Assembly: GCA_018823325.1 (NCBI GenBank)
Contig: JAHJIJ010000030.1
Span: 1 to 64,000 of the forward strand
DNA from: Alphaproteobacteria bacterium
Lineage (GTDB): Bacteria; Pseudomonadota; Alphaproteobacteria; Sphingomonadales; Sphingomonadaceae
Direction: 5' to 3'
Length of the DNA stretch: 64,000 nt
Part shown: positions 6,334 to 24,383 of the stretch, in pieces
How the letters are laid out: every line of letters begins with the position of its first letter
How positions within the stretch are numbered: the first letter of the stretch is position 1
Position numbers and translations under genes: made by a program
The notes under the pieces: model-generated
What the model saw: the letters and a program-made list of their open reading frames with translations, nothing else
Database searches by the model: none
What the model was told of the DNA's origin: nothing

Positions 6334-6344
6334 TCGTATAACAA
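6334..6344. promoter_or_regulatory. predicted GntR/FCD operator between esterase operon and MFS gene
   Basis: TCGTATAACAA matches the TNGTNNNACNA pattern known for FadR-subfamily GntR regulators. It lies between divergent starts at 6278 and 6412. Related elements recur in other promoter regions up to 24.4 kb. Confidence 0.55.
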
Positions 6345-6411
6345 AGTGACTGCGGCACCACCCTTTCTTATGGTGAGATGAATCGGCGCTGACATGACAG
6401 GGAGAGAGGCC

Positions 6412-7740
6412 ATGCCCAATCGTTCGATTTCGCTCTGGGCATTCACGGCGGCACTCGCCGGCCTGCTGTTCGGCTTCGACACGGCCGTGATTTCCGGCGC
6501 GGAACTGGCGATCCAGCGCACCTGGTCGATGGGCAGCGCGATGCACGGCCTTGCCATTTCTTCGGCGCTGTGGGGCACGGTGGTCGGCGCGCTGTTCGGC
6601 GCCATTCCCAGTGATCGCTATGGCCGCAAGCCGACGCTGATCTGGATCGGCATTCTCTATCTGGTCTCCGCCATCGGCTCGGCGCTGGCTTGGGACCCCT
6701 GGTCCTTCATGGCCTTTCGCATCATCGGCGGCCTCGCGATCGGCGCGTCGTCCATCGCTGCGCCAGCCTACATTTCAGAGATCGCCCCGCCCGCCTGGCG
6801 CGGCCGCCTGGGCATCCTGTTCCAGACGATGATCGTGCTCGGCATCCTCGTCGCTTATGTCTCGAACGCCCTCATCAGCGGCGCGAGCCCTGCCGACTGG
6901 CGGATCATGCTGGCAATCCCGGCCATTCCGGCGGTGTTCTTCCTCGCCGCGACTTTCCTGCTGCCGGAGAGCCCGCGCTGGCTGCTGCTCCACAAGGGCA
7001 ATGAGGCAGAGGCCCGGCGCGTGCTCGCGATGGCCGGCGGTGACATCGAGGCGATCCGCGCCACGGCCGATCCTGCGGATGCGCGCCGCATGAAGCTCAG
7101 CCGCTTCTTCGACGGGCATCTGCGCCGCCCGATCATGCTCGCCTTCCTCGTGGCCTTCTTCAACCAGCTCTCGGGCATCAACGCGATCATCTATTATGCC
7201 CCGCGCATCTTCGGCCTCACCGGCGCGGAAGCAAGCGCAACGCTCTACGCCACGGTGGGCGTCGGCGTGGTCAATCTCGTCTTCACGCTCATCGGCATGG
7301 CGCTGATCGACAGTGCCGGGCGCAAGAAGCTGATGCTGATCGGCTCGCTCGGCTACATCGTCTCGCTCGCCATGGTCGCTTATGGCTTTGCCAGCACGCA
7401 ATATGCGCTGGTGCCGATCTTCATCTTCATGTTCATCGCGGCTCACGCCATCGGTCAGGGCGCGATCATCTGGGTCTATATCTCGGAGATTTTCCCGAAC
7501 GCCGCGCGCGCCACCGGGCAGGCGCTCGGCACCGGCACCCATTGGGTGCTGGCTGCCGCGCTCACGCTGGTGATGCCCGGCGTGCTTGCCACCGTCGCCC
7601 CCGTGTGGATCTTCGGCTTCTTCGCCGTCATGATGGTGCTGCAGCTGCTGTTCGTGCTGTTCATGATGGTCGAGACGCGCGGGCGCTCGCTGGAGGAACT
7701 GTCGGTGGATCTCGCCAGCGAACCCACCGTTCGGTCCTGA
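6412..7740 (+). CDS. MFS transporter, sugar-porter type
   Basis: A 442-residue, 12-segment major facilitator of the sugar-porter family. Visible signatures are LLFGFDTAVISGA in TM1, SDRYGRKP after TM2, PESPRWLL before the central loop, FFNQLSGINAIIYYAPRIF in TM7 and a final ETRGRSLEEL. It should sit in the inner membrane and import a sugar or a sugar-like or acidic solute by proton symport. ATG 6412 is preferred to ATG 6394 because GGGAGAGAGG precedes it. It is transcribed divergently from the esterase operon over a predicted GntR-type site. Placement next to esterases suggests uptake of a product they release, which is inference. Confidence 0.88.
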   Translation: MPNRSISLWAFTAALAGLLFGFDTAVISGAELAIQRTWSMGSAMHGLAISSALWGTVVGALFGAIPSDRYGRKPTLIWIGILYLVSAIGSALAWDPWSFMAFRIIGGLAIGASSIAAPAYISEIAPPAWRGRLGILFQTMIVLGILVAYVSNALISGASPADWRIMLAIPAIPAVFFLAATFLLPESPRWLLLHKGNEAEARRVLAMAGGDIEAIRATADPADARRMKLSRFFDGHLRRPIMLAFLVAFFNQLSGINAIIYYAPRIFGLTGAEASATLYATVGVGVVNLVFTLIGMALIDSAGRKKLMLIGSLGYIVSLAMVAYGFASTQYALVPIFIFMFIAAHAIGQGAIIWVYISEIFPNAARATGQALGTGTHWVLAAALTLVMPGVLATVAPVWIFGFFAVMMVLQLLFVLFMMVETRGRSLEELSVDLASEPTVRS

Positions 7741-7749
7741 CAGCGGGGC

Positions 7750-7893
7750 TTATTTCCCGATGAGACCGACAAACAGATAGAAGTTGTAGGCCTGCAGCGC
7801 GATCGCAAACCAGCCGAACGCGTAGAAGGCGATCCGCAGCCAGCGCCGGCTCCGGCGGCGGGCCTTGCGGGGGCTGTCAGTCTGGTCTGTCAT
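7750..7893 (-). CDS. small single-TM protein, partner of a DoxX-like protein
   Basis: A 47-residue protein with a strongly basic N-terminus (RKARRRSRRW) followed by one hydrophobic helix. I do not recognise a family. Its ATG overlaps the stop of the DoxX-like gene (ATGA), so the two are almost certainly made together. The same arrangement, a DoxX-like gene followed by a short single-TM protein, recurs at 14596-15267. The positive N-terminus suggests the N-terminus stays in the cytoplasm. Confidence 0.65.
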   Translation of the reverse strand: MTDQTDSPRKARRRSRRWLRIAFYAFGWFAIALQAYNFYLFVGLIGK

Positions 7894-8369
7894 TCCCCGG
7901 CCTCCTTCGGTGTCGCTTTCCAGGCGAGCATCGGGCGATAGTAATCGACGTAGCACCAGAGCAGCCACAGGTGCAGCAGCAGCACGCACAGGCCGCCGAT
8001 GATCATGTCGCCAATGGCATAGAGTGCCGCGTCGGTCGTGACCGTGCCCTGAAGCCAGCCCCACAGATCATCGAGAATGAGCGCATCGAGCATGAAGGTG
8101 CCGAACATGACCGGGAAAGCGGCCACCAGCATCAGCGGCACGCCCCGGTTGAAGATGAGCGATAGCCCCAACGCGATCTCAATCACTTTCGCCAACTGGA
8201 ACATCCAGCCAGTGCGGATCATCTCGATGATGACCATATGTTTGATGGGCGTGTCGAGCGGCATGTAGATGCTGGGCAGCGGCATGAAGCCGAAGAACCA
8301 GTTGAGGCCGCTCAACAGGCTGAAAATGCCGAGCAACATCCGGGCGGAGAAGACCATTCCCTTGAACAT
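7890..8369 (-). CDS. DoxX-like four-helix membrane protein (module copy 1)
   Basis: A 159-residue protein with about four membrane helices. The core (LLSGLNWFFGF, then KVIEIALGLSLIFNRGVPL) is clearly shared with the protein at 14596, and the overall plan resembles the DoxX/DUF4267-type small membrane proteins. ATG 8369 is the likely start because everything upstream in the frame is not membrane-like; GGAGAGG lies somewhat far upstream. It is divergent from the MBL-fold gene, and a palindrome at 8425-8437 lies between them. Function is unknown. Related DoxX proteins are linked to oxidative or redox membrane complexes, but that is not shown here. Confidence 0.7.
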   Translation of the reverse strand: MFKGMVFSARMLLGIFSLLSGLNWFFGFMPLPSIYMPLDTPIKHMVIIEMIRTGWMFQLAKVIEIALGLSLIFNRGVPLMLVAAFPVMFGTFMLDALILDDLWGWLQGTVTTDAALYAIGDMIIGGLCVLLLHLWLLWCYVDYYRPMLAWKATPKEAGE

Positions 8370-8424
8370 TCTGATACCGATCCTCTCCGGATTCGAGTTG
8401 ACAGCGCCCTTGTAACGCGCATGA

Positions 8425-8437
8425 ATTGCTAGGCAAT
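8425..8437. promoter_or_regulatory. palindrome between DoxX-like and MBL genes, variant GntR-type site
   Basis: ATTGCTAGGCAAT is a 13-bp palindrome (arms ATTGC/GCAAT around TAG). It has the spacing of the perfect site ATTGTTAGACAAT at 10931 but differs at one base in each arm, so it is a weaker match to TNGTNNNACNA. Confidence 0.45.
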
Positions 8438-8455
8438 CATGTATTAGGATTTCTG

Positions 8456-9343
8456 ATGAAGCCGCAAACACTGGGCCGGATGACGATCAGCAGAGTCATG
8501 GAAATGGAAGCGGCCATGCCCTTCCCCATGATCTTTCCGGAGGTGACGGCGCAGGATCTCGCCAGCCTCTCGCACTGGTACAGCGATGACAGCATCAGCG
8601 GCGATCCGGCCACCTCCATGGTGACGCTCAGCATGCACAGCTTCATCGTGCAGCTCGACGGGCAGAACATCCTCATCGACAGCTGCAACGGCAATTGCAA
8701 GCAGCGCAGCCTGCCGGACGTGAACCAGCTGAACACGCCCTATCTCGAGAATCTCGCCAAGCTTGGCCTGCGCCCCGAGGACATCCACATGGTCCTCTGC
8801 ACTCACCTCCACATGGATCATGTCGGGTGGAACACGCGGCTGGAAAACGGCTGTTGGGTGCCGACCTTCCCCAACGCACGCTACATCTTCGGGCGGCGGG
8901 ACTATGATCACTGGTCCACCCAGCAGGACATCCCGCCGCATCGCGAAGCCTATGAGGATTCAGTGCTGCCGGTGGTCGAGGCCGGCCTGGCGGACATTGT
9001 GGATACGGATGATCCCCGCGCCGCGTTCAAGGAGATCGGCGAAGGCGTGTGGCTCGAGCCGGCTTACGGCCATTCACCGGGCAGCTGTGTCATCCATGCG
9101 CAGGGCGGCGGCGCGGCAGCGACCTTCTGGGGCGATGTGATCCACCATCCCGTCCAGCTCCTGCGGCCCGATCTGCAATTGATGTTCGATGATGACGGCC
9201 CGGCAGCCGCGCGGGTCCGCCAGTCACTCCTCAGCCGCCTAGCCGAGACGGATACGCTCTGCTGCCCCGCGCATTTCCGGGGCGCCACGGTCGGCCATAT
9301 CCGTAACGACGGAGAGGCCTACCGCTACGCGTTCGTCACCTGA
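8456..9343 (+). CDS. MBL-fold metallohydrolase (lactonase-like)
   Basis: A 295-residue metallo-beta-lactamase-fold hydrolase. The complete dinuclear metal set is visible: HLHMDHVGW, His in YGHSPGS, Asp in FWGDVIHH and a late His in CCPAHFRG. No signal peptide is evident, so it is probably cytoplasmic. Proteins of this shape include lactonases and other ester or thioester hydrolases. ATG 8456 follows AGGA with seven bases spacing. Its promoter faces the DoxX-like gene over a palindrome. In a ring-cleavage gene cluster, a lactone-opening role is plausible but unproved. Confidence 0.82.
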   Translation: MKPQTLGRMTISRVMEMEAAMPFPMIFPEVTAQDLASLSHWYSDDSISGDPATSMVTLSMHSFIVQLDGQNILIDSCNGNCKQRSLPDVNQLNTPYLENLAKLGLRPEDIHMVLCTHLHMDHVGWNTRLENGCWVPTFPNARYIFGRRDYDHWSTQQDIPPHREAYEDSVLPVVEAGLADIVDTDDPRAAFKEIGEGVWLEPAYGHSPGSCVIHAQGGGAAATFWGDVIHHPVQLLRPDLQLMFDDDGPAAARVRQSLLSRLAETDTLCCPAHFRGATVGHIRNDGEAYRYAFVT

Positions 9344-9359
9344 TCGATGCTCGCAGCGC

Positions 9360-9653
9360 CTAGCCGGCGCTCGGCGGCTTCATGGCAGCGATGCGATATC
9401 GACGCACGGAGACCAGCTCCAGCACCCCCGCCGCGACATAAGGGTCAGCCAGCGCCGCCGCCCGCGCCGCATCCATATCCTCTGCCTCGATGATGATGAC
9501 GCTCCCGACCGGGCGTTCATCCTCATCGAGCAGCGGCCCGGTCAGCGGCATGGCCGTGCCGAACCCCTTCCGATAGGCGATATGCTCGCCGCGCTTCGCC
9601 TCGCGCAGTTCGGCCGCACCAAGCTCGCGATATTCGACTAGAAAATGCGCCAT
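9360..9653 (-). CDS. YciI-family protein
   Basis: A 97-residue ferredoxin-like protein of the YciI family (MAHFLVEYRELG, GPLLDEDERPVGSVIII, ADPYVAAGVLE). The start codon follows immediately after the stop of the Rieske oxygenase gene (TGAATG), so they form one operon. YciI proteins often sit beside catabolic enzymes as small lyases, dehalogenases or muconolactone-isomerase-like partners. The exact role here is unknown. Confidence 0.8.
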   Translation of the reverse strand: MAHFLVEYRELGAAELREAKRGEHIAYRKGFGTAMPLTGPLLDEDERPVGSVIIIEAEDMDAARAAALADPYVAAGVLELVSVRRYRIAAMKPPSAG

Positions 9654-10916
9654 TCAGGCCGCCGCACCCACCGGCTGCAGATCGTCGGCAAGCGGCTGGA
9701 TGTCCTGCCACTTCTGCGTCGGCTCGAAGAGGAATGTCTCAGCCGTGATCTGCTCCCAGTCAAAATGGGCCTGATCGGCCTCGGGCAGTTCACCCGTCTC
9801 GGCCAGCCGCCGCGCGACCTTGAGCATCATGCGCCGGAAGGCCACGACCGCCATGTCCGAGCGCCCAAGATGTTCCTTGGAGCGATCGGCAATCTTGCCC
9901 ATCGTCTCACTCACTGCATGATCCTGCAGCGCCACGCCGACAATGCCGGACATGTTCTTCGTCCGCATCATCTCGCGGTCCTGATTATACCAGACCGACA
10001 TGCCGTTGGTTTTGAAGAAGTGCTCGTCATGCGGGGTGTTTGCCTCCGCCATGCGATGCGCGCGATCAATGGTCTGACCCGGATCGTAGAAGAACTGGAT
10101 GTGCCAGGTCGTATAATCGTCGCGCGGCACGAAGGCATTGACCAGCCGCCGGTTGCGGCGGAATTCGGGTGCCTTGGGGCCATCGGGCGGAATGAAGGTG
10201 TAAAACGGCAGCGGCACCTGCGTCATGCGGCCCTGCTTCTGCTCGCCATCGTTGCGCACGGCACAGTAGCGCATGCCATAGCGCGTATATTCGATCTCAA
10301 GTTTTGGGCGCAAATCCTTCTCATGCGGCCATTTTGCTGGCTGATCCCAGGCGCTGTCCCGGTGCAGGATGCCCGCATGCGAGCTATCGACAGCGCCTTC
10401 CAGCGCCTGCGCATAGTTGCACTCGTAAATGACCTTGAAGGCCTCGCAACTGCCCGGAGGCATGTCAAACCAGGGGAAGTGCGGGAAGGCCGGTTCCTTC
10501 TCCTTTGGCCCCATATAGGTCCACACCATGCCGCCCGCCACGCGGGTGGGATAGGCCTTCACGCGCATCGCCTTGGCGAGCTTTGAGTTCTCCGGCTCAG
10601 CCGGGGTATCGACGCACTGGCCGTTCACATCGAACTTCCAGCCATGAAACAGGCAGCGCAAGCCGCACTCGCCATTCACGCCCAGTGCCAGCGAGCTGCC
10701 TCGGTGCGGGCAATGCTCGTCCAGCAGGCCAATCCGCCCTTCGCTGTCCATGAACGCGACGAGGTCTTCGCCGAGGAGCTTGATGCGCACCGGCTTGCCG
10801 TCCGCCTGCAATTCCTGCGTCAGCAACGCCGGCATCCAGAAGCGGCGCATCACCTCCCCCATGGGCGTTCCGGGACCGATTCTGCAAAGCAGCTCGTTAT
10901 CTTCGTGAGAGAGCAT
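9654..10916 (-). CDS. Rieske non-heme iron oxygenase, alpha subunit
   Basis: A 420-residue ring-hydroxylating or O-demethylating oxygenase. The Rieske cluster ligands are clear: C69-P-H71 and C88-L-F-H91. The mononuclear iron region reads EGAVDSSHAGILH. The opening (LSHEDNELLCRIGPGTPMGE) resembles the phthalate 4,5-dioxygenase group, which also contains O-demethylases such as LigX. ATG 10916 follows AGGT with seven bases spacing; the GTG at 10925 is less well placed. No ferredoxin or reductase gene occurs in the window, so electron transfer must come from elsewhere. A perfect 13-bp palindrome lies 14 bases upstream of the start. Substrate unknown, probably an aromatic acid. Confidence 0.9.
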   Translation of the reverse strand: MLSHEDNELLCRIGPGTPMGEVMRRFWMPALLTQELQADGKPVRIKLLGEDLVAFMDSEGRIGLLDEHCPHRGSSLALGVNGECGLRCLFHGWKFDVNGQCVDTPAEPENSKLAKAMRVKAYPTRVAGGMVWTYMGPKEKEPAFPHFPWFDMPPGSCEAFKVIYECNYAQALEGAVDSSHAGILHRDSAWDQPAKWPHEKDLRPKLEIEYTRYGMRYCAVRNDGEQKQGRMTQVPLPFYTFIPPDGPKAPEFRRNRRLVNAFVPRDDYTTWHIQFFYDPGQTIDRAHRMAEANTPHDEHFFKTNGMSVWYNQDREMMRTKNMSGIVGVALQDHAVSETMGKIADRSKEHLGRSDMAVVAFRRMMLKVARRLAETGELPEADQAHFDWEQITAETFLFEPTQKWQDIQPLADDLQPVGAAA

Positions 10917-10930
10917 TTGACGCACCTGAC

Positions 10931-10943
10931 ATTGTTAGACAAT
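10931..10943. promoter_or_regulatory. predicted GntR/FCD operator upstream of the Rieske gene
   Basis: ATTGTTAGACAAT is a perfect palindrome (ATTGT-TAG-ACAAT). Its centre matches TNGTNNNACNA, and it lies just upstream of the Rieske gene start, where a repressor would block transcription. Confidence 0.6.
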
Positions 10944-11005
10944 AAGATATAAATATCGCAGCTGCGTGCAAAAGTCACTACCCAAAAACGGGCTGGCGGA
11001 TCAGC

Positions 11006-11332
11006 ATGCCGGCCATACTGACCAATCGGAGATATTGCGTGGACCTGGACGACATCCTGCCGGTGGAGAATTTCTCGGACCTGACGATCCAGACGCTCGC
11101 CGACCGGCTGCAACGCACAACCGGTGCCGAGCAGTGCATCTACCGCGAAAGCGAGCTGGACGAACTCTGGCGGCTGATCGACATCGCCCTCAAGACGGGC
11201 AGCGAGAGTCCACGCGATCCCGAGCAACTCCACCATCTGCGCGATCTGGTCCACCGTGCGCATGACCTCGTCGGCATGGAAAACCGTCCGCGCGAGGCCG
11301 CTGAGGTGCTGCGGGAAGCGCTGCTGAGCTAG
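11006..11332 (+). CDS. hypothetical small helical protein
   Basis: A 108-residue frame that encodes an acidic, mostly helical protein without cysteine clusters, signal peptide or membrane helix. The second half (LHHLRDLVHRAHDLVGM, then REAAEVLREALL) looks amphipathic. I do not recognise a family. A GTG at 11039 is an equally possible start (97 residues) and has the better upstream GGAGA. It is divergent from the Rieske gene. A longer frame on the opposite strand (10850-11425) has weaker composition and overlaps the Rieske start, so I prefer this one. Confidence 0.55.
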   Translation: MPAILTNRRYCVDLDDILPVENFSDLTIQTLADRLQRTTGAEQCIYRESELDELWRLIDIALKTGSESPRDPEQLHHLRDLVHRAHDLVGMENRPREAAEVLREALLS

Positions 11333-11444
11333 GCCTGCCTCAGCCGAGACCAACTTTTGCCACGCCCGACCGGTTGCGATCCGAGACGCCGCCGACGCCC
11401 GCGCAAGGTCTGTTACGATTGCCAAAGACGTCCAACCAGACTAT

Positions 11445-11457: not shown

Positions 11458-11476
11458 TTAGTTTCATGAGGACGCC

Positions 11477-12150: not shown

Positions 12151-13149
12151 TCACTTCCAATAAACAAACCCCATTGCATTCCCCGTCCCCGCTTCGCTGC
12201 GGTAGCAGGGCACATAATCCAGCACATGGCCTTGCAGCCCCAGTTGCGACATCGCACCGGCAACCGGCACCCAGTTTTTCATTTCCGATGTGCCATCGCG
12301 GAAGGTCGCCTCGCCCATGTTGAAGACGGGCTCGAAGTCCTTGCTTTCCAGCGCATTGAGGAACGTCTTGTCCACTGTTTCATCGATCACGAAATGCGTC
12401 AGCCCCCCGCTCGCGATCAGCGCGACGCGCTTGTCGCTGTCCCATTCGCGTATCGCTTCGAGGAGGGACTGGCCGAACTTGTAGCAACGCCGCACGCTCG
12501 GCTGATTGGGCGGGAAGAAGGTGTTCACCGTCACCATGACGCTGGGGCAAGGCCGGTCGCGCATGATGCGGCGATAGATGAAGCCCCAGGCATGGGGCGC
12601 TTCCGGGCGCGGCATGGCGGACATGGCGGCGACGTCGAACTCGTCCGCCATGGCCTGCTCGATGATCTTCAGCGCCAGCTCCGGGCAGCCGGGATAATCC
12701 GCGCCGCCGGCCGGAATATAGCCCTTGAGTGAGGGCGCGATGCCGGGCGGCAATTCCTTCAGCCGCTCCTGCGTAAACTCGTAATTGGTGATCGTGTCGC
12801 CATAATGCACCGCGAAGGCCGGGTTCAGCGTCTTGCGGAAAATCTCGTCCTGATCGTTGCCGACGATGACGGCGACATCCACGCGCGCTTCCTCGAACAG
12901 GTCGGCCAGCTTCTCGATATTCTGCTGGCAGCGCGCCTGCCGTTCGTCCCACACGGCCTTGACCGTCTGCTCGCCCAGCCGCTCCCCTGCCCGCGCTTCG
13001 ACCAGCTCGTCGAAGGTCCAGGTGCCGCCTTTCCAGGCATGCTTGTTCGCCTTGTCGGCCGGCACCCGCAGGCCCCAGCTCTCCGTTTCGGTGACCAGCA
13101 TCGGGCCATGGCTCGTGCCAATGCCAAGGACGATTTCTGCCATGCGCAT
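12151..13149 (-). CDS. LigB-type (class III) extradiol dioxygenase with a variant metal site
   Basis: A 332-residue member of the LigB/DODA superfamily, which opens catechol-type rings next to a hydroxyl group. His14 in GTSHGP fits the first iron ligand, and GGLTH fits the catalytic His region of LigB (GGMSH). Where LigB has its second iron His (motif NDH) this protein reads GNDQDE, with Gln100. I recall related proteins with GDDQ at this place, so it may mark a subfamily rather than a mutation. AGGAG lies directly before ATG 13149; ATG 13143 is also possible. No LigA-like small subunit is next to it. It is divergent from the flavin monooxygenase over a GntR-type site, so both may be induced together. 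Confidence 0.82.
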   Translation of the reverse strand: MRMAEIVLGIGTSHGPMLVTETESWGLRVPADKANKHAWKGGTWTFDELVEARAGERLGEQTVKAVWDERQARCQQNIEKLADLFEEARVDVAVIVGNDQDEIFRKTLNPAFAVHYGDTITNYEFTQERLKELPPGIAPSLKGYIPAGGADYPGCPELALKIIEQAMADEFDVAAMSAMPRPEAPHAWGFIYRRIMRDRPCPSVMVTVNTFFPPNQPSVRRCYKFGQSLLEAIREWDSDKRVALIASGGLTHFVIDETVDKTFLNALESKDFEPVFNMGEATFRDGTSEMKNWVPVAGAMSQLGLQGHVLDYVPCYRSEAGTGNAMGFVYWK

Positions 13150-13230: not shown

Positions 13231-13317
13231 TCTTGCCTTGCAGGTCAATTGCGGGCAATCGCCGAGGGGCGAGCAGGTTGGCGCAGCAGCGCCGGGCCTT
13301 GCTGAACAGAGGAAGGG

Positions 13318-14562
13318 ATGATGGATATGGCGAGCCAGGCAAGCGGGGATGTCGCAGAACTCGAGATCGCGGGCAGCTGGCCCGTTGTCGAATCGAGTGC
13401 CGATGCGCTGACCCGGGTGCGCGCGCTGCTGCCGCAGATCGCGGCGGCGGATGCCGAATCGGAAAGCGCGCGGCGCCTTTCGCCCGATGTTGTGGACGCC
13501 ATCCGTCAGACCGGCCTGTTCGGCGTGGTCATGCCCCGCAATCTCGGCGGCTCGGAACTTGGCTTTGCCGATCTTGTACGCGTCACGGCGGAAATCGGCA
13601 CCGTGTCCGGTTCCGCAGCGTGGATCTTCGGGGTGCTGGCCGGCCATAGCTGGCTCATCAATCTGTTCCCGGAAGAAGCCCAGCGCGAGGTGATGAGCGA
13701 CCCCACGACGCTGATCGGCACCGTGTTCCGGCTCGGCGGCGAGGTCGTTGAGGAAAATGGCGGCTATCGGCTCACCGGCGGCTCCGGGCGCTTCTGCTCG
13801 GGCATCGATTATGCGACCTGGGTGATCATCGGCAATGCCGTGAAGAAGGCGGATGGCTCAGTGGAGCCACGCTTCTTCGTGCTGCCCAAGTCGGAGATCG
13901 AGGTGGTGGACGACTGGTTCACCCTCGGTATGCGAGCCACAGGCAGCCGCTCCATCAAGATCGACAGCGCCTTCATTCCCGCGCATCGCAGCTGCAGCCT
14001 GGCGGACATGCTCTCCGGCTCCACGCCCGGCGCGCGGGTGCATGAGGGGGCGGTGTATCGCATGCCGTTCTCCAATATTGCGCCGTTTTCGATCGTGGGC
14101 GCACCGCTCGGCATGGCGCGCGGCATGGTCCAGCGCTTCGCGGCAGACATCGGGAAAAAGCTCCAAGGCGCAGACGCGCTCGAGATTGCCGAGCAATCCG
14201 CCACTCTCGCCCGCATCGCCGAAGTTGGCGCGGAAGTCGATGCAGCGATCGCCCTGATCATCAACGACGCCCAAATGGTCGACGATGCGCGCGATCCCTC
14301 GGACATATCTGCGCTGCAAGGAGCGCAAATCTCGCGCAACTGGGCATGGGGCGTGCAGCGCGCACGCCACGCCGCGAATCGTATTTTTGAGGCATCAGGC
14401 GGCAGCGCGATCTACGACAACAGCGCCATGCAGCGCCTGTTCCGCGATCTCAATTCCGGGTCGCAGCATTTCGCCTTCACCTGGGACCGTGCGATGACAG
14501 GCTATGGCCGCGCTGCAGCGGGCCTCCAGGCTGGCGCCTTCGCTCTCCCCAACCGCAAATGA
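13318..14562 (+). CDS. group D flavin-dependent monooxygenase (acyl-CoA dehydrogenase fold)
   Basis: A 414-residue protein with the acyl-CoA dehydrogenase fold. The lack of CoA context and the pattern GLFGVVMPRNLGGSELGF, GTVSGSAAWIFGVLAGH and YRLTGGSGRFCSGID place it with the group D monooxygenases (HpaB-C2/HsaA/DszC type). These hydroxylate phenols or similar rings with reduced flavin supplied by a separate reductase, which is absent from the window. AGAGGAAGGG precedes ATGATG, so the start is 13318 or 13321. It is divergent from the ring-cleavage dioxygenase, and the likely order of reactions is hydroxylation to a catechol and then cleavage. It heads a plus-strand run with the DoxX-like module. 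Confidence 0.82.
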   Translation: MMDMASQASGDVAELEIAGSWPVVESSADALTRVRALLPQIAAADAESESARRLSPDVVDAIRQTGLFGVVMPRNLGGSELGFADLVRVTAEIGTVSGSAAWIFGVLAGHSWLINLFPEEAQREVMSDPTTLIGTVFRLGGEVVEENGGYRLTGGSGRFCSGIDYATWVIIGNAVKKADGSVEPRFFVLPKSEIEVVDDWFTLGMRATGSRSIKIDSAFIPAHRSCSLADMLSGSTPGARVHEGAVYRMPFSNIAPFSIVGAPLGMARGMVQRFAADIGKKLQGADALEIAEQSATLARIAEVGAEVDAAIALIINDAQMVDDARDPSDISALQGAQISRNWAWGVQRARHAANRIFEASGGSAIYDNSAMQRLFRDLNSGSQHFAFTWDRAMTGYGRAAAGLQAGAFALPNRK

Positions 14563-16746: not shown

Positions 16747-16813
16747 CCCGGAGAGATAATCGCCTAACATTTTCAGCTAACGATCTATGACTTCCATTTG
16801 CTGAGGATGTAAC

Positions 16814-17620
16814 TTGCCCCTGATCGATGCCCATTGCCACGTCTCCCCCTTGTGGTTCGAACCGGTCGAAACACTGCTTTTCCAGATGGAAAGAAACGGG
16901 GTCGAGAAGGCCGTTCTCACCCAGATTCTGGGGCAATTCGATAACCGCTATCAGCGCGATTGCGTCACGCGTTACCCTGATCGATTTGTCAGCATAGGCG
17001 CCGTGAATGCGGCAGAGGAAAACGCACCGGACATCGTGGCATCGCTCGCGGCTGAAGGAATGGCAGGGCTGCGCCTGCGTCCTGATGCGCGCAGCCCCGG
17101 GCATGATCCTCTGGCGATCTGGCGCGCGGCGGCTTCGTCTGGCCTTGTCATCAGTTGCGGAGGGGCAAGCGAGCAATTGCTGGCACCGCAGTTTGCATAT
17201 CTCGTCGGCACCTTCCCCGATATGCCATTCATCGTCGAACATCTGGGCGGCTGGACAAGGCCGGACTGCGACAAGAGCGCCGATACGTGGAATGGCATCC
17301 TCGGCCTCGCGCGCTTCCCGAACATCTCGATCAAGATTCCGGCGTTGGGCCAGATCATCTCGCGTGGCGTGGGCAAGCCATTACCGGCTGCCGGCCCGGT
17401 GCTCGACCCATCAGGTGCGTCTGTGCTGACCGAGGCGCTCGCGGCTTTCGGTCATGAACGGCTGATGTGGGGAAGCGATTTCCCCGTGGTCTCTTCCCGG
17501 GAGGGCTATGCAAATGCGCTCGCCTGGACCCGCCAGATCTTCGACGGTTACGGACCCACAGCCGTGGACGCGATCTTCGGCATGAATGCAGAGCGAATAT
17601 TCTTCCAGCGTAAGGCTTGA
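16814..17620 (+). CDS. amidohydrolase (Amidohydro_2, LigI/ACMSD-like)
   Basis: A 268-residue TIM-barrel metal hydrolase. It has the HxH metal motif near the start (IDAHCHV), a strand-5/6 His (VEHLGGW) and the catalytic Asp in MWGSDFPV. The TTG at 16814 is the start, with GAGGATG upstream; no ATG fits. The family includes 2-pyrone-4,6-dicarboxylate lactonase (LigI) and several decarboxylases and hydratases. In this cluster a lactonase or decarboxylase acting after ring cleavage is the most reasonable guess. It lies 55 bases before the propeller gene, with a GntR-type site between them, so the next gene may have its own promoter. Confidence 0.82.
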   Translation: MPLIDAHCHVSPLWFEPVETLLFQMERNGVEKAVLTQILGQFDNRYQRDCVTRYPDRFVSIGAVNAAEENAPDIVASLAAEGMAGLRLRPDARSPGHDPLAIWRAAASSGLVISCGGASEQLLAPQFAYLVGTFPDMPFIVEHLGGWTRPDCDKSADTWNGILGLARFPNISIKIPALGQIISRGVGKPLPAAGPVLDPSGASVLTEALAAFGHERLMWGSDFPVVSSREGYANALAWTRQIFDGYGPTAVDAIFGMNAERIFFQRKA

Positions 17621-17633
17621 AGACCTCGCAAGA

Positions 17634-17644: not shown

Positions 17645-17675
17645 AACGGTATATTTTATTGCTGGAGCAAATCCC

Positions 17676-18845
17676 ATGGCACAGGATGCCAAAACCACGA
17701 TCATCTGCGTTTCCGCGAACGGCAAGACCACGTCCACCAGTGAGACCGCCGCGCGCAGAATGCTGGTTGCGACGGCGGAAGGCCTTGTAGACTTCCGGCG
17801 GGAGACTGTCGAAAGCCCTTGGCAGCGCCAGGCCGAAATGCTGCTGCCGGGCCATCACGTCAGCGCGCTCGTCTATGACGAGCAGACGGATCTGCTGTTT
17901 GCGGGACTTCACTTCCAGGGCGGCCTGCTCGTCAGCGCCGATCAGGGCAAAAGCTGGGAGGCGCGCAACAACGGCCTGCAATCCGAGCATGTCTACAGTC
18001 TGCTGGTCCAGCATGTCGGCGATCAGACCATTCTCAACCTCGGCACCGAGCCGGTGATGTTCTACCGGAGCTTCGATCTGGGGAAGAGCTGGACGGCCTA
18101 TCCGAGCTGCACGCAGGTCGAGGGAACCGAGCACTGGTTCTTCCCGCGCTCGCAACCGCACATCAAGCACATCGCGTCTCATCCTTCCGAGCCTGAGACG
18201 ATTTACATCTGCGTCGAGCAAGGCGATCTGCTCCGCACGGAAGACGGCGGAAATAGCTGGACGTCCATCAACGCGATGGAACGCCCCGACGACAAGTTCC
18301 GGCGCGACCAGCATCGTGTAACATTCTTCCGCGACGATGCCTCGGAGATTTTCTTCACCACCGGTATCGGTCTCTATCACACCACCGACCGGGGGAATTC
18401 CTGGGAGCGGCTGACCGATACAAGTCATCCCTGCGCCTACCCGGACCCGTTCTTCGTGCATCCGCGCAAGGAACTGCTGTTCATGGTCGGAGCCGGCATG
18501 AACCCCAACCCGAACTGGGGGGCTGAAGGCACGGCCTATCCCAAGTTCATGATCAGTACCGACCATGGCAAGAGCTGGGCCGTCAGCATGGACGGCATGG
18601 CCGACCCGATCAGAGGCAATCTGGAAGTCGCAGCGATGCATGACTCCCCCGAGGGCGGCGTGGAGCTCTTCACCGGCTCTGCCTGCGGAGAACTCTACAC
18701 GAGCAAGGACGAAGCGAAGAGCTGGCAGCATATCTCCGAGAGCCTGCCCGCCATGTCCAAGGGCCCCCATTTCCGCCACTTCCTCCCACCCGAGGAACGG
18801 GCCGCCTATGAGGAAAAACTGCGAGCGCTGAACGCGTTCGCCTGA
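17676..18845 (+). CDS. Asp-box (BNR) beta-propeller protein, probably cytoplasmic
   Basis: A 389-residue protein with at least six Asp-box motifs of the form S/TxDxGxS/TW: SADQGKSW, SFDLGKSW, TEDGGNSW, TTDRGNSW, STDHGKSW and a degenerate SKDEAKSW. Regular spacing indicates a sialidase or VPS10-like propeller. No signal peptide is visible after ATG 17676 (GGAG eight bases upstream). It lacks the arginine triad pattern I would look for in a true sialidase. Asp-box propellers mostly bind or scaffold; a few act as lyases or hydrolases. Its place between two amidohydrolases suggests that it takes part in the same pathway, possibly as an enzyme of undescribed type. Confidence 0.75.
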   Translation: MAQDAKTTIICVSANGKTTSTSETAARRMLVATAEGLVDFRRETVESPWQRQAEMLLPGHHVSALVYDEQTDLLFAGLHFQGGLLVSADQGKSWEARNNGLQSEHVYSLLVQHVGDQTILNLGTEPVMFYRSFDLGKSWTAYPSCTQVEGTEHWFFPRSQPHIKHIASHPSEPETIYICVEQGDLLRTEDGGNSWTSINAMERPDDKFRRDQHRVTFFRDDASEIFFTTGIGLYHTTDRGNSWERLTDTSHPCAYPDPFFVHPRKELLFMVGAGMNPNPNWGAEGTAYPKFMISTDHGKSWAVSMDGMADPIRGNLEVAAMHDSPEGGVELFTGSACGELYTSKDEAKSWQHISESLPAMSKGPHFRHFLPPEERAAYEEKLRALNAFA

Positions 18846-19899: not shown

Positions 19900-19950
19900 C
19901 CTTCGGATAGGGGCAAGGCTCTGCCCACGGGTGACGAGGATGGAGGGAAA

Positions 19951-21063
19951 ATGATGGAATCCGTGTCTCGTGCTTCTGTGAAGGTCGACATCGAACGATC
20001 TGAAATCAGGGAATTTCTACTGCCTCCTGTGGGCGACAATGACGGCCTTCTGAAAGTCGAGGCGTCTGGCGTGGGCGGCAGCGATCCGGAAATGTACCGG
20101 AAGGAAAATACCGCGCCGTGCATCATGGGCCACGAGAATGTCGGCACCGTCGCCAAGATCGGCGATGCGGCGGCGCGGCGGTGGGGCATAGGCCCCGGCG
20201 ACCGGATCGCCCTGCACGAATATCTGCCCTGCTGGCACTGCCACTGGTGCCGGCAAGGCGATTTCCGGCTTTGCATGGAAGCCGACTTCTTCAACGTGAA
20301 GGATCGGTTCAACACGCTGCGCTATGGCACCTGCAACGCCGATATCCCTCCCCATCTGTGGGGCGGCTTTTCCGAATATATGTATCTGGCGCCCAATGCG
20401 GTCATTCACAAAATCCCCGCAGATATGGACGCCCGCCTCGCAACGCTGGCGGTGCCCTTGGGCAATGGCGTCCAATGGGCCGTGCTGGATGGCGGCGCCG
20501 GACTGGGCAAGACCGTCCTCGTCTTCGGCCCCGGTCAACAGGGCCTGAGTTGCGCCCTTGCCGCCAAGCAGGCCGGGTCGCTTACCGTCATCATCGCCGG
20601 CCAGACGCGCGACCGGGCGCGGCTGGATCTTTCGCTCAGCCTGGGTGCCGACATCGCCGTGGATGTGCAGCAGGAAGACCTGACCGCTGCCGTGATGCGG
20701 GCGACTGACGGCAGAGGCGTGGATGTGGTGGTCGATACAACCGGCGATCCGGATGGGAGCATTGCCGCGCAGGCCATTGCCCTTTCCGCGAAAGGCGCCT
20801 GGCTCAGCCTGAACGGCCTCGGTGCCTCAGTGCCTTTGGGGGAGATCAAGAAGCGCTATCTCACCGTGCGGGCACCGCGTGGGCACAGCTACCGCGCGGT
20901 CCAGACAGCCCTCGATATTCTGGCGAGCAAGCAATGGCCGGCCGAGCGCCTGTGCAGCCATGATTTCGCGCTGAATCAGGTTCATGAGGCCATTCTGGCG
21001 ACGGCCGGCCGCGGCATCGAGGGCGCAATTCACGTGACCGTCTCACCGCACAAAGGTGATTGA
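19951..21063 (+). CDS. zinc-type alcohol dehydrogenase lacking the catalytic Cys
   Basis: A 370-residue medium-chain dehydrogenase. The structural zinc cysteines are present (C94, C97, C100, C108), as are MGHENVG (H61, E62) and the Rossmann motif VFGPGQQG. At the place of the catalytic zinc cysteine (usual GxCGTD) it reads GVGGSDPE, so residue 42 is Gly. The catalytic zinc may be absent or differently held, and the reaction may therefore not be a simple alcohol oxidation. GGAGGGAAA precedes ATG 19951. It follows the amidohydrolase by 51 bases and precedes the GntR gene. Confidence 0.85.
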   Translation: MMESVSRASVKVDIERSEIREFLLPPVGDNDGLLKVEASGVGGSDPEMYRKENTAPCIMGHENVGTVAKIGDAAARRWGIGPGDRIALHEYLPCWHCHWCRQGDFRLCMEADFFNVKDRFNTLRYGTCNADIPPHLWGGFSEYMYLAPNAVIHKIPADMDARLATLAVPLGNGVQWAVLDGGAGLGKTVLVFGPGQQGLSCALAAKQAGSLTVIIAGQTRDRARLDLSLSLGADIAVDVQQEDLTAAVMRATDGRGVDVVVDTTGDPDGSIAAQAIALSAKGAWLSLNGLGASVPLGEIKKRYLTVRAPRGHSYRAVQTALDILASKQWPAERLCSHDFALNQVHEAILATAGRGIEGAIHVTVSPHKGD

Positions 21064-21179
21064 ATGCGCATTGACGCGCCGAGCCTCCGGATGTTCGGGA
21101 AGGACGAGGTTTCGTTAGGTTTTTTAAGCGTACCAATTATCTTCCACGTTCGGATAAGCATGCCGCGAGGAGCAACCAT

Positions 21180-21824
21180 TTGGCCACAATGATCGACCTG
21201 GGGGACTCCCTGCCCAACGTGGTGGCGGACGAACTGCGCGCGCTGATTGTTCGAGGAACCCTCCTGCCCGGCGAGCATCTGGGCCAGACGCAGCTTGCTG
21301 GCAGATTTGGCCGCAGCAAGGTGCCGATCCGCGAGGCGCTCAAGCTGCTGGCGACGGAGGGCTTCCTGCGCCACGATCACAATCGCGGCTACTTCGTCGC
21401 TCCTCTGGAAATCGAAGAAGCGCGGCAACTCTACAAGCTGCGCCGGTGGCTCGAAGCCGAATTGCTCGCGACGGCAGTGTGGCCCACGGACGAGCAGATT
21501 GCCGGTTTCCGGCGCCAGTTCGATCAGCTCGACGCCATGGATCAGGTCGGCGACTTCAGCAACTGGGCCAAGGCGCTTGAAAGCCTGCGCCTCGCCCTCT
21601 TCGCGCTCTCACCCGAGACCATCTTGCTGCGCGAAGCAACACGGCTCTGGCGCCTGACGGACCGTTATCGGTCGCTCATGCCGCGCACCATGAGCGAGAG
21701 CCCGGAACGCAAGCTGATCGATGCGCTCGCGGCGCGCGACAGGGATGCCCTGCTGGCAGACTATATGCAGGCACGCCACAAGATCGAGGATGCTCTGGAA
21801 CAGGTTTTCCAGAACCGTCGCTAA
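21180..21824 (+). CDS. GntR-family regulator, FCD (FadR/VanR) subfamily, copy 1
   Basis: A 214-residue regulator. The winged helix-turn-helix spans about residues 10-75 (LGQTQLAGRFGRSKVPIREA is the recognition part) and a helical FCD ligand domain follows. It is paralogous to the regulator at 24459: both share NRGYF/NRGFF at the wing and LWxLTDRYR in the FCD domain. Several positions where FCD proteins usually carry metal-binding His are not His here (LRLALFAL, ERKLIDAL). TTG 21180 is chosen because GAGGAG stands seven bases before it. It probably binds the TNGTNNNACNA elements of this island, or half of them. Confidence 0.88.
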   Translation: MATMIDLGDSLPNVVADELRALIVRGTLLPGEHLGQTQLAGRFGRSKVPIREALKLLATEGFLRHDHNRGYFVAPLEIEEARQLYKLRRWLEAELLATAVWPTDEQIAGFRRQFDQLDAMDQVGDFSNWAKALESLRLALFALSPETILLREATRLWRLTDRYRSLMPRTMSESPERKLIDALAARDRDALLADYMQARHKIEDALEQVFQNRR

Positions 21825-21864
21825 CGCCCTGGAGCGGCCCTGCCCTCTCCACACCAATGCAAGA

Positions 21865-22524
21865 TCAGGGCTGCTTGCGGCTCTGGAGAGTGTGATATTT
21901 GAACTGCTTGCGGGCCTCATCGAGGCGCATGCCGGTGCGGCAGGCAGCGCGAATGCTCTCCTCGGCGGCGTGAATCTCCTCGGCGGCGGCAAGCACCGCC
22001 TCCTCATGCGCCTGCGGGATGACGATCACGCCGTCTGGATCGCCGCGCAAAATGTCGCCGGGCGCGACGCGCGCGCCGCCGATGTTGACCGGGCAGTTGG
22101 TGACCTCGACCTGCACCCGGTCCTTGCCCGTGCGCATCCAATGGCCCTTGCTGAACACCGGGTAGCCGAGCGCGCGGCACAGCGAGACATCGCGGCTGAT
22201 CCCGTCGATCACGGTGCCCGCCAGCCCGCGCCGGTGGGCGATCTCGGTGAGGATATCGCCCCAGATGGTCGCATCCTCGCGCCCGCCATTGTCGATGACC
22301 ACGACATGGCCCGGCGGCACATCGTCGATATAATCACCCACCGTCCCCGGCGGGGTCGAGGCCGGGCCGCAGAGCATCGTGTAAGCGCGACCCGCCATGC
22401 GGAAATCAGGATCCCGCCCGACGATCTTGTAGCACTGGCCAACAATGCCCAGCCGGTCGAGCGCATCACTCAGCGTGGCAGTGTCCAGCGCAGCAGCGCG
22501 CGCGACGTTGCGGTCTTCAGTCAT
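21865..22524 (-). CDS. RraA-family aldolase/decarboxylase-like protein 1
   Basis: A 219-residue RraA-fold protein, the family that includes HMG/CHA aldolase, which splits 4-carboxy-4-hydroxy-2-oxoadipate to pyruvate and oxaloacetate. It shows TLSDALDRLG, DNGGREDATIWGDI and GTVIDGISRDV. The Arg-Asp of the aldolase motif is present, but the following acidic residue (R-D-x-x-E/D) is replaced (RDVSL). It is the last gene of a three-gene minus-strand operon; the upstream stop and this start overlap by one base. It may form a hetero-oligomer with the second RraA protein or use a different substrate. Confidence 0.82.
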   Translation of the reverse strand: MTEDRNVARAAALDTATLSDALDRLGIVGQCYKIVGRDPDFRMAGRAYTMLCGPASTPPGTVGDYIDDVPPGHVVVIDNGGREDATIWGDILTEIAHRRGLAGTVIDGISRDVSLCRALGYPVFSKGHWMRTGKDRVQVEVTNCPVNIGGARVAPGDILRGDPDGVIVIPQAHEEAVLAAAEEIHAAEESIRAACRTGMRLDEARKQFKYHTLQSRKQP

Positions 22525-23210
22525 CAGCTGTCGCCCTTGAGCATATATTCGTAGTTCGTACCGAGCACGGCGCTCGCGCTCTCGCCGGTCGCCAGCCGCC
22601 GCGTCATCTCGCCCTCGCGGCGCACGATGTCCTCTGCAGCATCGAGCACACGGGCGATGTCACCCGGCGCGATGAACACCGCCGCACTGGAATCGCAGAT
22701 CACATAGAAACCCGGCTCGACGGTGAAGTCCCCCACCGTCACCGGCACATCGGTGGCGTCCTCATACACCCGGTTGCGCGCCGTGCGGGCGGTATAGCCC
22801 CGGCAGAAGACCGGGAAGCCGATCTCGCGGGCTTCGTCCACATCGCGGGCCAGCCCCTCGCAGATCACCCCGGCCACGCCCTTGTGCTGTGCCCCGCGCG
22901 ACAAAATCCCGCCCCAGCAGCCGGCATCGATGCCGGTGCGCTGCTCGACCACGATCACATCGTCCGGCCCGCTGGCATCGATCGCCGCTGCGCCCAGATG
23001 CACCGGCGGGCGATCCGCAGGCGCATTGCCGGCCTTGAGCTTCACCGTATGCACCCGCCCGGCGATCCGCTTGCCCGGCGAGGCTGAGCGCAGCCCGGTC
23101 ACGCAGCCGGCCAGCCCCAGCTTGTCCAGCGTGTCCGATACCGCGCAGGCATCAAGCTTGCGCAGGCGCGCGACATGGGGGTCTGTTGCTGTCACGTCCG
23201 GCCCGCTCAT
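22524..23210 (-). CDS. RraA-family aldolase-like protein 2
   Basis: A 228-residue RraA-fold protein with AVSDTLDKLG, CWGGILSRGAQHKGVAG and the full aldolase-type motif GLARDVDE (R-D-x-x-E). It is therefore the better candidate for true CHA-type aldolase activity (pyruvate release). It overlaps the LigJ-like gene by four bases (ATGA) and the next RraA gene by one base, so the three are translated as a unit. Such a hydratase-aldolase pair is the end of the 4,5-protocatechuate and gallate cleavage routes. Confidence 0.85.
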   Translation of the reverse strand: MSGPDVTATDPHVARLRKLDACAVSDTLDKLGLAGCVTGLRSASPGKRIAGRVHTVKLKAGNAPADRPPVHLGAAAIDASGPDDVIVVEQRTGIDAGCWGGILSRGAQHKGVAGVICEGLARDVDEAREIGFPVFCRGYTARTARNRVYEDATDVPVTVGDFTVEPGFYVICDSSAAVFIAPGDIARVLDAAEDIVRREGEMTRRLATGESASAVLGTNYEYMLKGDS

Positions 23211-24217
23211 GCCTGTGGCACATCCAGCTTGAAGAGCCGCGCGGCATTGCCGAACATGATCTTGTCCTTCTCCTCCTGGCTCAGCCAGTCAAAGCCGGTG
23301 ATGAAGGGCGCGATGTCATCCAGCGTCTTGCCGGTCGCGGGGTCCACGGCCGATCCGACGCCCGGGCATTCCGCGCCGAACAGACAATTGTCCGCCCCCA
23401 CGGTCTTGATAAGCAGCCGCAGCGCTTCCTCCGAATAAAGCACCGTATCATAATAGATGTGGCGCATCTTATCGAGGAACTCCTCGCCCTTGCGCAGGCC
23501 GGACGCCCGGAAGCGGCCGACGTGATAGGGAATCGCGCCGCCGCCATGGCTGCACACGATCTTGAGCGAAGGGAAATCCTTGAACACGTCGCTCTCCAGC
23601 AGGCCATAGACCGCCATCGTCTCCTCCAGCAGGAAGTTGAGCGTATAGGGCGCGCGGCGGCTACGCGATCCGGCGGAATGGATGTGCGCCGGCACGTCCA
23701 GTTCGCAGAGCTTCTCGTAGAGTGGATACCAGTAGCGATCCCCCATGGGCGGAGGCTCGGTGCCATCATTTTCATAAGGATCGGGGTTGAGCAGGCAGCC
23801 CTTGAAACCGAGCGTCTTCACGCAGCGCTCAAGCTCCGGCAGCACATTTTCAATGGGCTCGCCGGCGACCTGCGGAAGACCGCAGATCGGCGCAAAGCGA
23901 TCGGGTAAAAGCTGACACTGGCGCGCAATGATGTCGTTCGTCGCCTCGGTAAACCAGTGCACGAGAAAGCCCGGCTTTTCGGAATGCATCATCTGGAACG
24001 GGCGCGGGCTGAGCAGCTGATAATTGGTGCCGACCCGGTCGAGCATATCGAGATGACCGCAGGGCGCCATCTCCTTCTTGTTGGTGTAAGCGAGAATCTG
24101 TTCGTCCGTCAGATCCGGGAATTTCTTGCCGTGTTCGCCGCGATGGGAAAGCAGCAGGGACTTGTAAACCCACAGCTCTGCCGGTGCACTGACATGGCCG
24201 TGACAATCGATGATCAT
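23207..24217 (-). CDS. LigJ-like 4-oxalomesaconate hydratase family protein (amidohydrolase fold)
   Basis: A 336-residue amidohydrolase-fold protein that closely follows LigJ of Sphingobium SYK-6 as I remember it: IIDCHGH, LNPDP in the middle, WYPLYEKLCELDVPAHIH, and HGGGAIPYHVGRFR. LigJ hydrates 4-oxalomesaconate to CHA, which an RraA-type aldolase then splits; the next two genes are RraA-type. ATG 24217 follows GGGGA with proper spacing; the longer frame to 24253 has none. Its promoter region holds a near-match GntR-type site at 24268 and faces the second GntR gene. The substrate may differ from OMA if the ring-cleavage substrate differs. Confidence 0.82.
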   Translation of the reverse strand: MIIDCHGHVSAPAELWVYKSLLLSHRGEHGKKFPDLTDEQILAYTNKKEMAPCGHLDMLDRVGTNYQLLSPRPFQMMHSEKPGFLVHWFTEATNDIIARQCQLLPDRFAPICGLPQVAGEPIENVLPELERCVKTLGFKGCLLNPDPYENDGTEPPPMGDRYWYPLYEKLCELDVPAHIHSAGSRSRRAPYTLNFLLEETMAVYGLLESDVFKDFPSLKIVCSHGGGAIPYHVGRFRASGLRKGEEFLDKMRHIYYDTVLYSEEALRLLIKTVGADNCLFGAECPGVGSAVDPATGKTLDDIAPFITGFDWLSQEEKDKIMFGNAARLFKLDVPQA

Positions 24218-24267
24218 GGAAATTTCCCCGCGCAGGATCTCGCCCGAAGGCATTCAAGAATACATTT

Positions 24268-24278
24268 TTGTATACCAA
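24268..24278. promoter_or_regulatory. near-match GntR/FCD site upstream of the LigJ-like operon
   Basis: TTGTATACCAA departs from TNGTNNNACNA by one fixed base but keeps the palindromic TTG...CAA form of the element at 13220. It lies 50 bases before the operon start. Confidence 0.42.
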
Positions 24279-24372
24279 TCGAGGAAAGCGGGTCAAGCAG
24301 GCTTGGGGCTTTGAAGGACTGCATCCAGCGCAAAGCGCTCACAGTTCCCGCAGAGTGAAAATGTCTACATTT

Positions 24373-24383
24373 TTGTGAGACAG
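24373..24383. promoter_or_regulatory. near-match GntR/FCD site upstream of the second GntR gene
   Basis: TTGTGAGACAG fits TNGTNNNACNA except for the last base. Its place before the regulator at 24459 would allow autoregulation. Confidence 0.38.

Follow-up and report, generated by a model that had tools for sequence, protein, structure and literature searches.

Operators of the FadR subfamily of GntR-type regulators are described as palindromes in which TKGT and ACMA boxes lie mostly 3 nt apart, yielding a GT-N3-AC signature, and paired sites at a relatively constant distance have been reported for them (PMC4494728; this source and the three below are cited from partial text). Among GntR-type repressors, Escherichia coli NanR assembles as three dimers on (GGTATA)3 direct repeats and has a 32-residue N-terminal extension, its cooperative assembly being called unique among reported GntR mechanisms (PMC8012715), and Pseudomonas putida CsiR, which acts on the glutarate pathway, protects two regions, one of them over the -10 and -35 elements (PMC6667623). 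In Sphingobium SYK-6, the genes for degradation of 5,5'-dehydrodivanillate (DDVA) are under the control of the MarR-type regulator DdvR (PMC6874591). Here, we describe a FadR-type palindrome, of consensus TTGTTATACAA, that is shared by at least six promoters of a lignin-type aromatic catabolic gene island in a 64,000-nt stretch of sphingomonad DNA (contig JAHJIJ010000030.1, positions 1 to 64,000; hereafter the window), taken from a genome of 3,882,647 bases. These elements are probably the operators of one local GntR-type repressor regulon, which would include companion genes of unknown function.

The palindrome class itself is already known. With FadR-subfamily operators, the island shares the AT-rich GT-N3-AC palindrome, its location in divergent promoters and a regulator gene within the cluster; it differs by a fixed 13-bp centre distance and by a core that holds a -10-like hexamer, such a spacing being absent from the available part of PMC4494728. 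With NanR, it shares a GntR-type repressor and side-by-side dimers, which are described for NanR (PMC8012715) and proposed here for the island; it has, however, palindromes at 13 bp instead of direct hexamer repeats, and its two GntR proteins (GntR1 and GntR2) have short N-termini. CsiR differs by its glutarate pathway, and the available part of PMC6667623 does not give its operator sequence; GntR1 and GntR2 match the CsiR model below its cut-off. Regarding the SYK-6 DDVA pathway (LigXa, LigZ and LigY), the island likewise encodes a LigXa_C-domain Rieske oxygenase, a LigB-type dioxygenase and a LigY-like hydrolase, whereas the two island regulators examined are GntR/FCD proteins and not of the MarR type of DdvR, and the propeller protein, the flavin monooxygenase and the RraA pair of the island are not among the DDVA genes named in the available part of PMC6874591. 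A limited search of the open-licence PMC literature retrieved no report of a 13-bp pairing fused with a -10 element, nor of a GntR-controlled LigY-type pathway. New here are the exact 13-bp pairing, the -10-like hexamer within the operator core, the LigY-like identity of the hydrolase and the recurrence of the sites before orthologues.

A FadR-type palindrome recurs in the island promoters

A preliminary description of this DNA had listed seven elements, four fitting a loose pattern, TNGTNNNACNA, fully and three nearly. All seven are present in the sequence, the one placed at 10931 having to be read as 10932. Taken as stated, the loose pattern stays at chance level, with six matches in the window for 4.54 expected (shuffle mean) and at least six in 30 of 100 shuffles, and it was rejected as evidence for an operator. 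It has further matches, unlisted until now, at 1450, inside long open reading frames (ORFs), and at 47474, which is intergenic and outside the island. Two stricter patterns were made after the sites had been seen: TYGTWWDACAA, drawn as narrowly as the four full matches allow, and the consensus TTGTTATACAA. Across the 3.88-Mb genome, TYGTWWDACAA has five strand matches, solely at the four full-match places, as compared with 18 strand matches in the backward reading. With at most one mismatch, TTGTTATACAA occurs at ten places in the genome, of which five fall within 6334-24278 (13220, 6334, 10932, 17634 and 24268), the 13220 core being the sole place without mismatch. Among the five places outside the island, three are inside ORFs of 438-788 amino acids (aa) and one is in the overlap of a 500- and a 506-aa ORF; the fifth, on contig C9, has only short mechanical ORFs (127 and 236 aa) and is followed, about 74 bp further on, by a TonB-receptor ORF. 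Hence, when promoter and coding DNA are compared, as the preliminary description had proposed, the strict motif stands, its five island places being all in promoter regions on the gene map made in this analysis, whereas the loose pattern is unenriched.

Scored as single palindromes, the elements reach 14.5 bits (6334), 9.8 bits (8426), 15.4 bits (10932), 16.1 bits (13220), 14.5 bits (17634) and 13.2 bits (24268). At this level, 8426 is unremarkable, since about eight scores at 9 bits are expected by chance, and the listed element at 24373 is weak (5.3 bits). Outside the island, TTGTTCAACAA at 47474-47484 scores 12.4 bits; it stands in the divergent region of TonB-receptor and alpha/beta-hydrolase genes, where another palindrome, GCAAGCGCTTGC at about 47540-47555, resembles a LacI-type operator.

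Because both strict patterns were derived from the sites themselves, an independent matrix was sought in homologous loci. These were retrieved with GntR2 (15 loci) and by LigY-like and propeller searches in 298 family genomes, which gave matches in 77 and seven genomes, respectively (own genome included; most of the 77 at the level of LigJ), and longer stretches were read in six genomes. For motif learning by expectation-maximisation, 64 merged upstream regions (14.7 kb) were used, with the window and the near-duplicate L038 excluded. The 15-wide motif, TATTGTTATACAAAA, has a log-likelihood of 206 (120 starts) versus 44-51 for three mononucleotide-shuffled sets, each run with 60 starts; the 24-wide motif is GTATACAATTTTGTATAACAATCT, and the core matrix built without the window has G at 0.89 and C at 0.89 at the key positions. 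TNGT-N3-ACNA, the palindrome of FadR-subfamily operators, is matched by this core matrix and by the four full island matches. In the window, this 24-mer matrix reaches 15 bits or more at exactly seven places, each of them in an island promoter, for a mean of 0.08 over 100 Markov sequences (top single score 20.5) and one place in the backward-read window; the best score in 25001-64000 is 10.3. Six of the seven listed elements are thereby confirmed, including the near-match 8426, which is rescued, and a site at 16763 is added; the element at 24373 is not confirmed and may be explained by chance. Elsewhere in this genome, 31 loci were scanned (128,620 bases), and 15 bits were attained twice, on contigs C9 (22.8, overlapping offsets) and C4 (17.2, in two overlapping loci); this control is biased, since near matches to the motif had been the ground for fetching most of these loci.

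Moreover, the sites recur before orthologous genes in other sphingomonads. In a tally restricted to genes that match island proteins, with one best site retained for each region and with genes confined to the window left aside, 10 bits or more are reached upstream of LigY-like (6/9), propeller (5/7), Rieske (4/6), LigB (3/3), ORF 11006 (3/3), flavin monooxygenase (2/3), amidohydrolase A (amidA, 2/6), ADH (2/10), RraA1 (1/4) and MBL (1/2) genes, and before GntR2 in 5/11 regions (the window's own being shared with LigY) and GntR1 in 2/7. None is present upstream of amidB (0/5), gene 14596 (0/5), MFS2 (0/3) or RraA2 (0/3). Rows of this tally are not independent, as divergent pairs share sites, and the MBL/DoxX regions were cut at mis-set ORF starts, so that 8426 is missed. 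The sites before Rieske orthologues include those of loci L091, L096 and L099, while the amidA sites are present in L091 and L093 and not in L037, L095 and L096. Locus L037 is that of Novosphingobium sp. MD-1, which carries an orthologous cluster. When orthologous promoters of four genes are aligned on the core, identity is 81-96% in the core versus 24-34% in the outer flanks, with 96% versus 34% for the propeller operator in five promoters. At the level of whole genomes, when up to one mismatch to TTGTTATACAA is allowed, G117 has all five of its places on the island contig and G138 has nine of 11 on its two island contigs. Three genomes in which the cluster was sought and not found, G102, G237 and G076, have seven, eight and two scattered places, G102 encoding a 36% propeller homologue. 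What differs is the location of the places, and not their total number.

Beyond sphingomonads, conservation of the motif is suggestive at most. A de novo search of 46 Paraburkholderia intergenic regions yielded only AT-rich, mutually inconsistent motifs, and suggestive sites came solely from scanning with the sphingomonad matrix, about 85 bp upstream of GntR2 relatives, in the Paraburkholderia loci L046 (20.4 bits), L048 (20.5) and L047 (15.0). The seven other GntR2-type promoters score 15.3 (L049, at another position), 13.3 (L050) and at most 11.2, two Cupriavidus ones being below zero.

Paired palindromes at 13 bp and a -10-like hexamer in the core

Pairs of palindromes were counted in 16 sphingomonad loci (269 kb, including the first 30 kb of the window), each member having at least 4 bits and both together at least 16, at centre distances of 6-40. 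Twenty-five pairs have a centre distance of 13 bp (two three-palindrome chains being each counted twice), versus at most two at every other distance and none at 13 bp in backward-read DNA. Without L038, 22 such pairs remain, and 33 clean control loci (221 kb) contain a single one, the C9 site. When the surroundings of 30 primary sites scoring 10 bits or more are profiled, a companion of at least 4 bits is located at -13 in five cases and at +13 in four, for 0 or 1 at other offsets of 6-32. As the second copy is mostly a half site in the window, the tandem is best seen here through the 24-mer. Both this pairing and the overlap with a -10-like element were missed in the preliminary description.

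Regarding promoter geometry, a first model with the -10 hexamer 5 nt downstream of the core was dropped once the alignment revealed a conserved TTGACC at 15-16 nt. This TTGACC is upstream of a core TATACA, TATACG or TATACC in all nine LigY-type promoters listed and in two of three LigB promoters, and all five propeller promoters place TTGA or TTGC 15-17 nt before the core hexamer. Among 33 oriented sites, TTGA or TTGC precedes this hexamer by 15-17 nt in 18 cases in gene orientation and in one case in the opposite one (33 of 44 rows, the divergent Rieske, 11006, 6334 and 8426 rows being excluded and orthologues counted separately). In the genome, TTGAM-N(14-17)-TATACRA has three matches, exactly the LigZ-, propeller and LigY-type operators, with two in the reversed control. 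The weak amidA pair (8.0 and 5.8 bits) has TTGACC 15 nt upstream of the hexamer of its first repeat. Since the core in the LigY-, LigZ-type and propeller promoters contains a -10-like TATACA preceded by TTGACC or TTGAA, the predicted binding should block RNA polymerase.

Candidate regulators and alternative explanations

Six FCD proteins are encoded in the genome. GntR1 and GntR2 are the two of the island and both match Pfam GntR and FCD, in line with the two FCD regulators announced by the preliminary description. In the recognition region, GntR2 orthologues have SRVPVREAL or, for a few, SRVPIREAL. FCD domains contain metal-binding His residues; by eye, GntR1 is devoid of the first FCD His motif, and GntR2 keeps HREFH, whereas the His of the NKH motif, present in most of its close orthologues, is replaced by Arg. 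GntR2 is divergent from the LigY-like operon across the best operator, and four homologous loci (L090, L092, L094 and L096) have a site of 10 bits or more in the GntR2 promoter; for GntR1, no such site is present in five of the seven loci tallied. Of the two, GntR2 is the likelier putative binder. The Paraburkholderia loci L046-L048 encode a relative of GntR2 (about 52%) next to RraA-RraA-LigB-LigY-propeller-monooxygenase-11006(-Rieske) genes.

The mechanism that we propose is the following. An FCD-family GntR repressor, most likely GntR2, would bind as two neighbouring dimers, cover the -10 and the start region and block RNA polymerase, until its release by a substrate or intermediate of the pathway, which the FCD domain would bind. 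The regulon would join the esterases, the transporter, the MBL/DoxX pair, the Rieske oxygenase, the monooxygenase, the ring-cleavage dioxygenase, the LigY-like hydrolase with its aldolases and the propeller protein into one pathway paralleling DDVA degradation. The single regulon postulated in the preliminary description is retained, through a FadR-type operator shared by the esterase/MFS, MBL/DoxX, Rieske, dioxygenase/monooxygenase, propeller and hydrolase promoters, and loses the loose pattern, the 'LigJ' label and the element at 24373.

Several observations weigh against such a regulon. Most operators of the window have a degenerate second repeat; at 6334, 8426 and 10932 the core hexamer has no matching -35 at the expected distance, and the -35/-10 layout is clear only for the LigY-type, LigZ-type, propeller and perhaps amidA promoters. 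The element upstream of GntR2 is weak, GntR1 has no site of its own in the window, and, of the four FCD genes elsewhere in the genome, two are each close to one 12-bit site (12.3 and 12.6 bits). For MFS2, ADH and amidB the window offers no good site (5.5, 0.8 and 4.7 bits), and the regulon accordingly leaves some genes out. With the 24-mer, scores of 15 bits or more are met now and then in promoters elsewhere in the genome, and orthologous promoters do not count as independent. In further genomes, the share of places on the island contig falls to 2/10 (G270), and within the cluster stretch read to 1/6 (G195) and 0/6 (G144, which carries much of the cluster); the totals in cluster genomes (5, 11, 10, 6 and 6) are not above those of the three genomes without it. 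Outside sphingomonads, besides the inconsistent de novo motifs, only two of ten Paraburkholderia/Cupriavidus GntR2-type promoters exceed 20 bits.

That the elements are a loose 6-base palindrome met by chance in AT-rich promoter DNA would agree with the behaviour of TNGTNNNACNA and with the high scores of a few other AT-rich promoters. It is nevertheless highly improbable given the matrix learned without the window, the 13-bp pairing, the genome-wide rarity of the strict motif and the conservation of the core over its flanks; in our view, chance is ruled out for the six strong sites. The sites could also be real operators of a regulator encoded outside the island, perhaps another FCD protein, with GntR1 and GntR2 acting elsewhere or on themselves. 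The weak GntR2 site, the lack of one at GntR1 and the four other FCD proteins, two having a 12-bit site nearby, speak for this possibility, which we still hold to be quite unlikely: GT-N3-AC is the FadR-subfamily signature (PMC4494728), the motif in G117 and G138 is concentrated on contigs with the cluster and its GntR genes, and GntR2 promoters have their own sites in the four loci named above.

How many dimers bind is a further point. The second 'repeat' may be a part of the promoter, in its start region, that is common to these genes, a single dimer being then bound. Indeed, the second half, GTAT, is downstream, on the gene side, in nearly all aligned LigY-, propeller and LigZ-type promoters, and an assembly comparable to that of NanR has been called unique (PMC8012715). 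Yet in several promoters the second copy fits the palindrome over its full length (e.g., L090 5203, L093 3621, L094 14474 and L041 11040), the offset profile peaks on either side of the primary sites, and the amidA pair is, by eye, in the opposite orientation, which leaves the one-dimer explanation as the less probable one. Within a local regulon bound by two dimers, a rather unlikely variant is that the 13-bp tandem forms a composite operator on which GntR1 (Lys, SKVP) and GntR2 (Arg, SRVP) would sit side by side as different dimers.

Island genes and a possible parallel DDVA-type pathway

LigXa-, LigZ- and LigY-type homologues are found together in the island (Table 1), LigZ being recognized by its LigB domain and context. 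The hydrolase that had been labelled 'LigJ' matches LigY, which hydrolyses the ring-cleavage product of OH-DDVA, far better (E 9.6e-146 and 2e-145) than LigJ (3.9e-64); its closest solved relative is LigY and not LigJ, a 4-oxalomesaconate hydratase. Contig C4 carries a second LigY-RraA-RraA-LigB operon (L102:11834-15208), whose LigY is 62%, LigB 45% and RraA pair 97-98% identical to those of the island, which suggests recent copying or conversion of the aldolase pair alone. The LigY nearest to the SYK-6 LigY structure is that of C4 (774 bits versus 489 for the island copy), and for this reason the island is not the standard DDVA pathway; judged from its sequence, it looks like a second, parallel DDVA-type pathway for a related compound. 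The tannase/feruloyl-esterase-type enzymes suggest that the substrate might be an esterified plant phenolic.

Among the neighbouring genes, the MBL orthologue of G117 is divergent from LigY across the LigY operator (L090). The small ORF 11006-11332 has no family match, and its place beside the monooxygenase and Rieske genes is kept in other sphingomonads and in Paraburkholderia. The stretch 11477-12087, which lies between the Rieske gene and the dioxygenase gene, carries two small overlapping ORFs that have, by eye, the look of a Phd/RelE-type toxin-antitoxin pair. The propeller gene shares the cluster in Paraburkholderia (L046-L048 and L051), and it was matched in only seven of the 298 family genomes. 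Outside the island, the C9 site (34898-34908, G000) precedes a 965-aa TonB-receptor ORF (L104:927-3824) and has, by eye, TTGACG 17 nt before TATACA. This receptor, whose best homologue in island loci is at 38%, may be the uptake receptor of the regulon, as a single case in an AT-rich region.

Table 1. Genes, operators and promoter elements of the island (window coordinates; operator scores are those of the 24-mer matrix unless indicated)
Feature	Position	Strand	Evidence and context
Carboxylesterase (3830-5461) and dienelactone-hydrolase-like esterase (5373-6311)	3830..6311	-	
Operator, core 6334-6344 TCGTATAACAA	6324..6347	-	20.7 bits; between esterase operon (-) and sugar MFS gene (+)
Sugar-type MFS transporter	6394..7740	+	
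DoxX-like membrane protein (label of the preliminary description; start by eye)	7890..8369	-	No Pfam match (longer ORF), no NCBIfam match
Operator, core 8426-8436 TTGCTAGGCAA and downstream half	8423..8446	+	20.1 bits; between DoxX-like (-) and MBL (+) genes
MBL-fold hydrolase, AHL-lactonase-like (start by eye)	8456..9343	+	Pfam Lactamase_B on longer ORF; NCBIfam AHL-lactonase models below cut-off
Rieske oxygenase with LigXa_C domain	9654..10925	-	
Operator, core 10932-10942 TTGTTAGACAA	10929..10952	+	24.6 bits; between Rieske (-) and small conserved ORF 11006 (+)
LigB-type extradiol dioxygenase, LigZ-like by context (start by eye)	12151..13149	-	Pfam LigB on longer ORF
Operator, core 13220-13230 TTGTATAACAA	13210..13233	-	25.6 bits; TATACA on - strand; between LigZ-like dioxygenase (-) and flavin monooxygenase (+)
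-35-like TTGACC	13243..13248	-	16 nt upstream of operator TATACA
HsaA-like flavin monooxygenase	13318..14562	+	NCBIfam below cut-off
Weak tandem operator before amidA, TCGCCTAACAT and TCAGCTAACGA 13 bp apart	16760..16786		24-mer at 16763, 15.3 bits; not in the preliminary description
-35-like TTGAAG of propeller promoter	17617..17622	+	
BNR propeller operator, core 17634-17644 TCGTTATACAA	17631..17654	+	27.9 bits; core contains TATACA
BNR/sortilin-type propeller protein	17676..18845	+	
GntR1, FCD regulator	21180..21824	+	Pfam GntR and FCD above cut-off; orthologues SKVP(I/V)REAL
Two RraA-like aldolase genes	21865..23210	-	Pfam RraA-like; 97-98% identity to contig C4 pair
LigY-like C-C hydrolase	23207..24253	-	PDB 5vn5 E 9.6e-146, 6e6i E 2e-145
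LigY-like operon operator, core 24268-24278 TTGTATACCAA	24258..24281	-	28.2 bits, best of the window; TATACA on - strand; divergent region with GntR2
-35-like TTGACC of LigY-like promoter	24291..24296	-	
Weak operator-like element, ATGTCTACATT and TTGTGAGACAG	24361..24383	+	Core 5.3 bits (single palindrome); upstream of GntR2; L092 has a comparable sequence before its GntR2 gene
GntR2, FCD regulator, likely cognate repressor	24459..25124	+	Pfam GntR and FCD above cut-off; SRVPVREAL

This locus provides a testable regulon for a seemingly uncharacterised second LigXa/LigZ/LigY-type pathway, and would assign to it the propeller protein, the MBL/DoxX pair and possibly a TonB receptor encoded on another contig. 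If the composite operator were true, it would constitute an AND-gate of duplicated repressors of one family, a second, DDVA-like biaryl pathway with a propeller protein opening only when both sense their ligands. Finally, the 13-bp pairing together with the -10-like hexamer in the operator offers a rule for annotating such clusters in other sphingomonads, and the operator architecture may be used for inducible promoters responding to lignin-derived aromatics.

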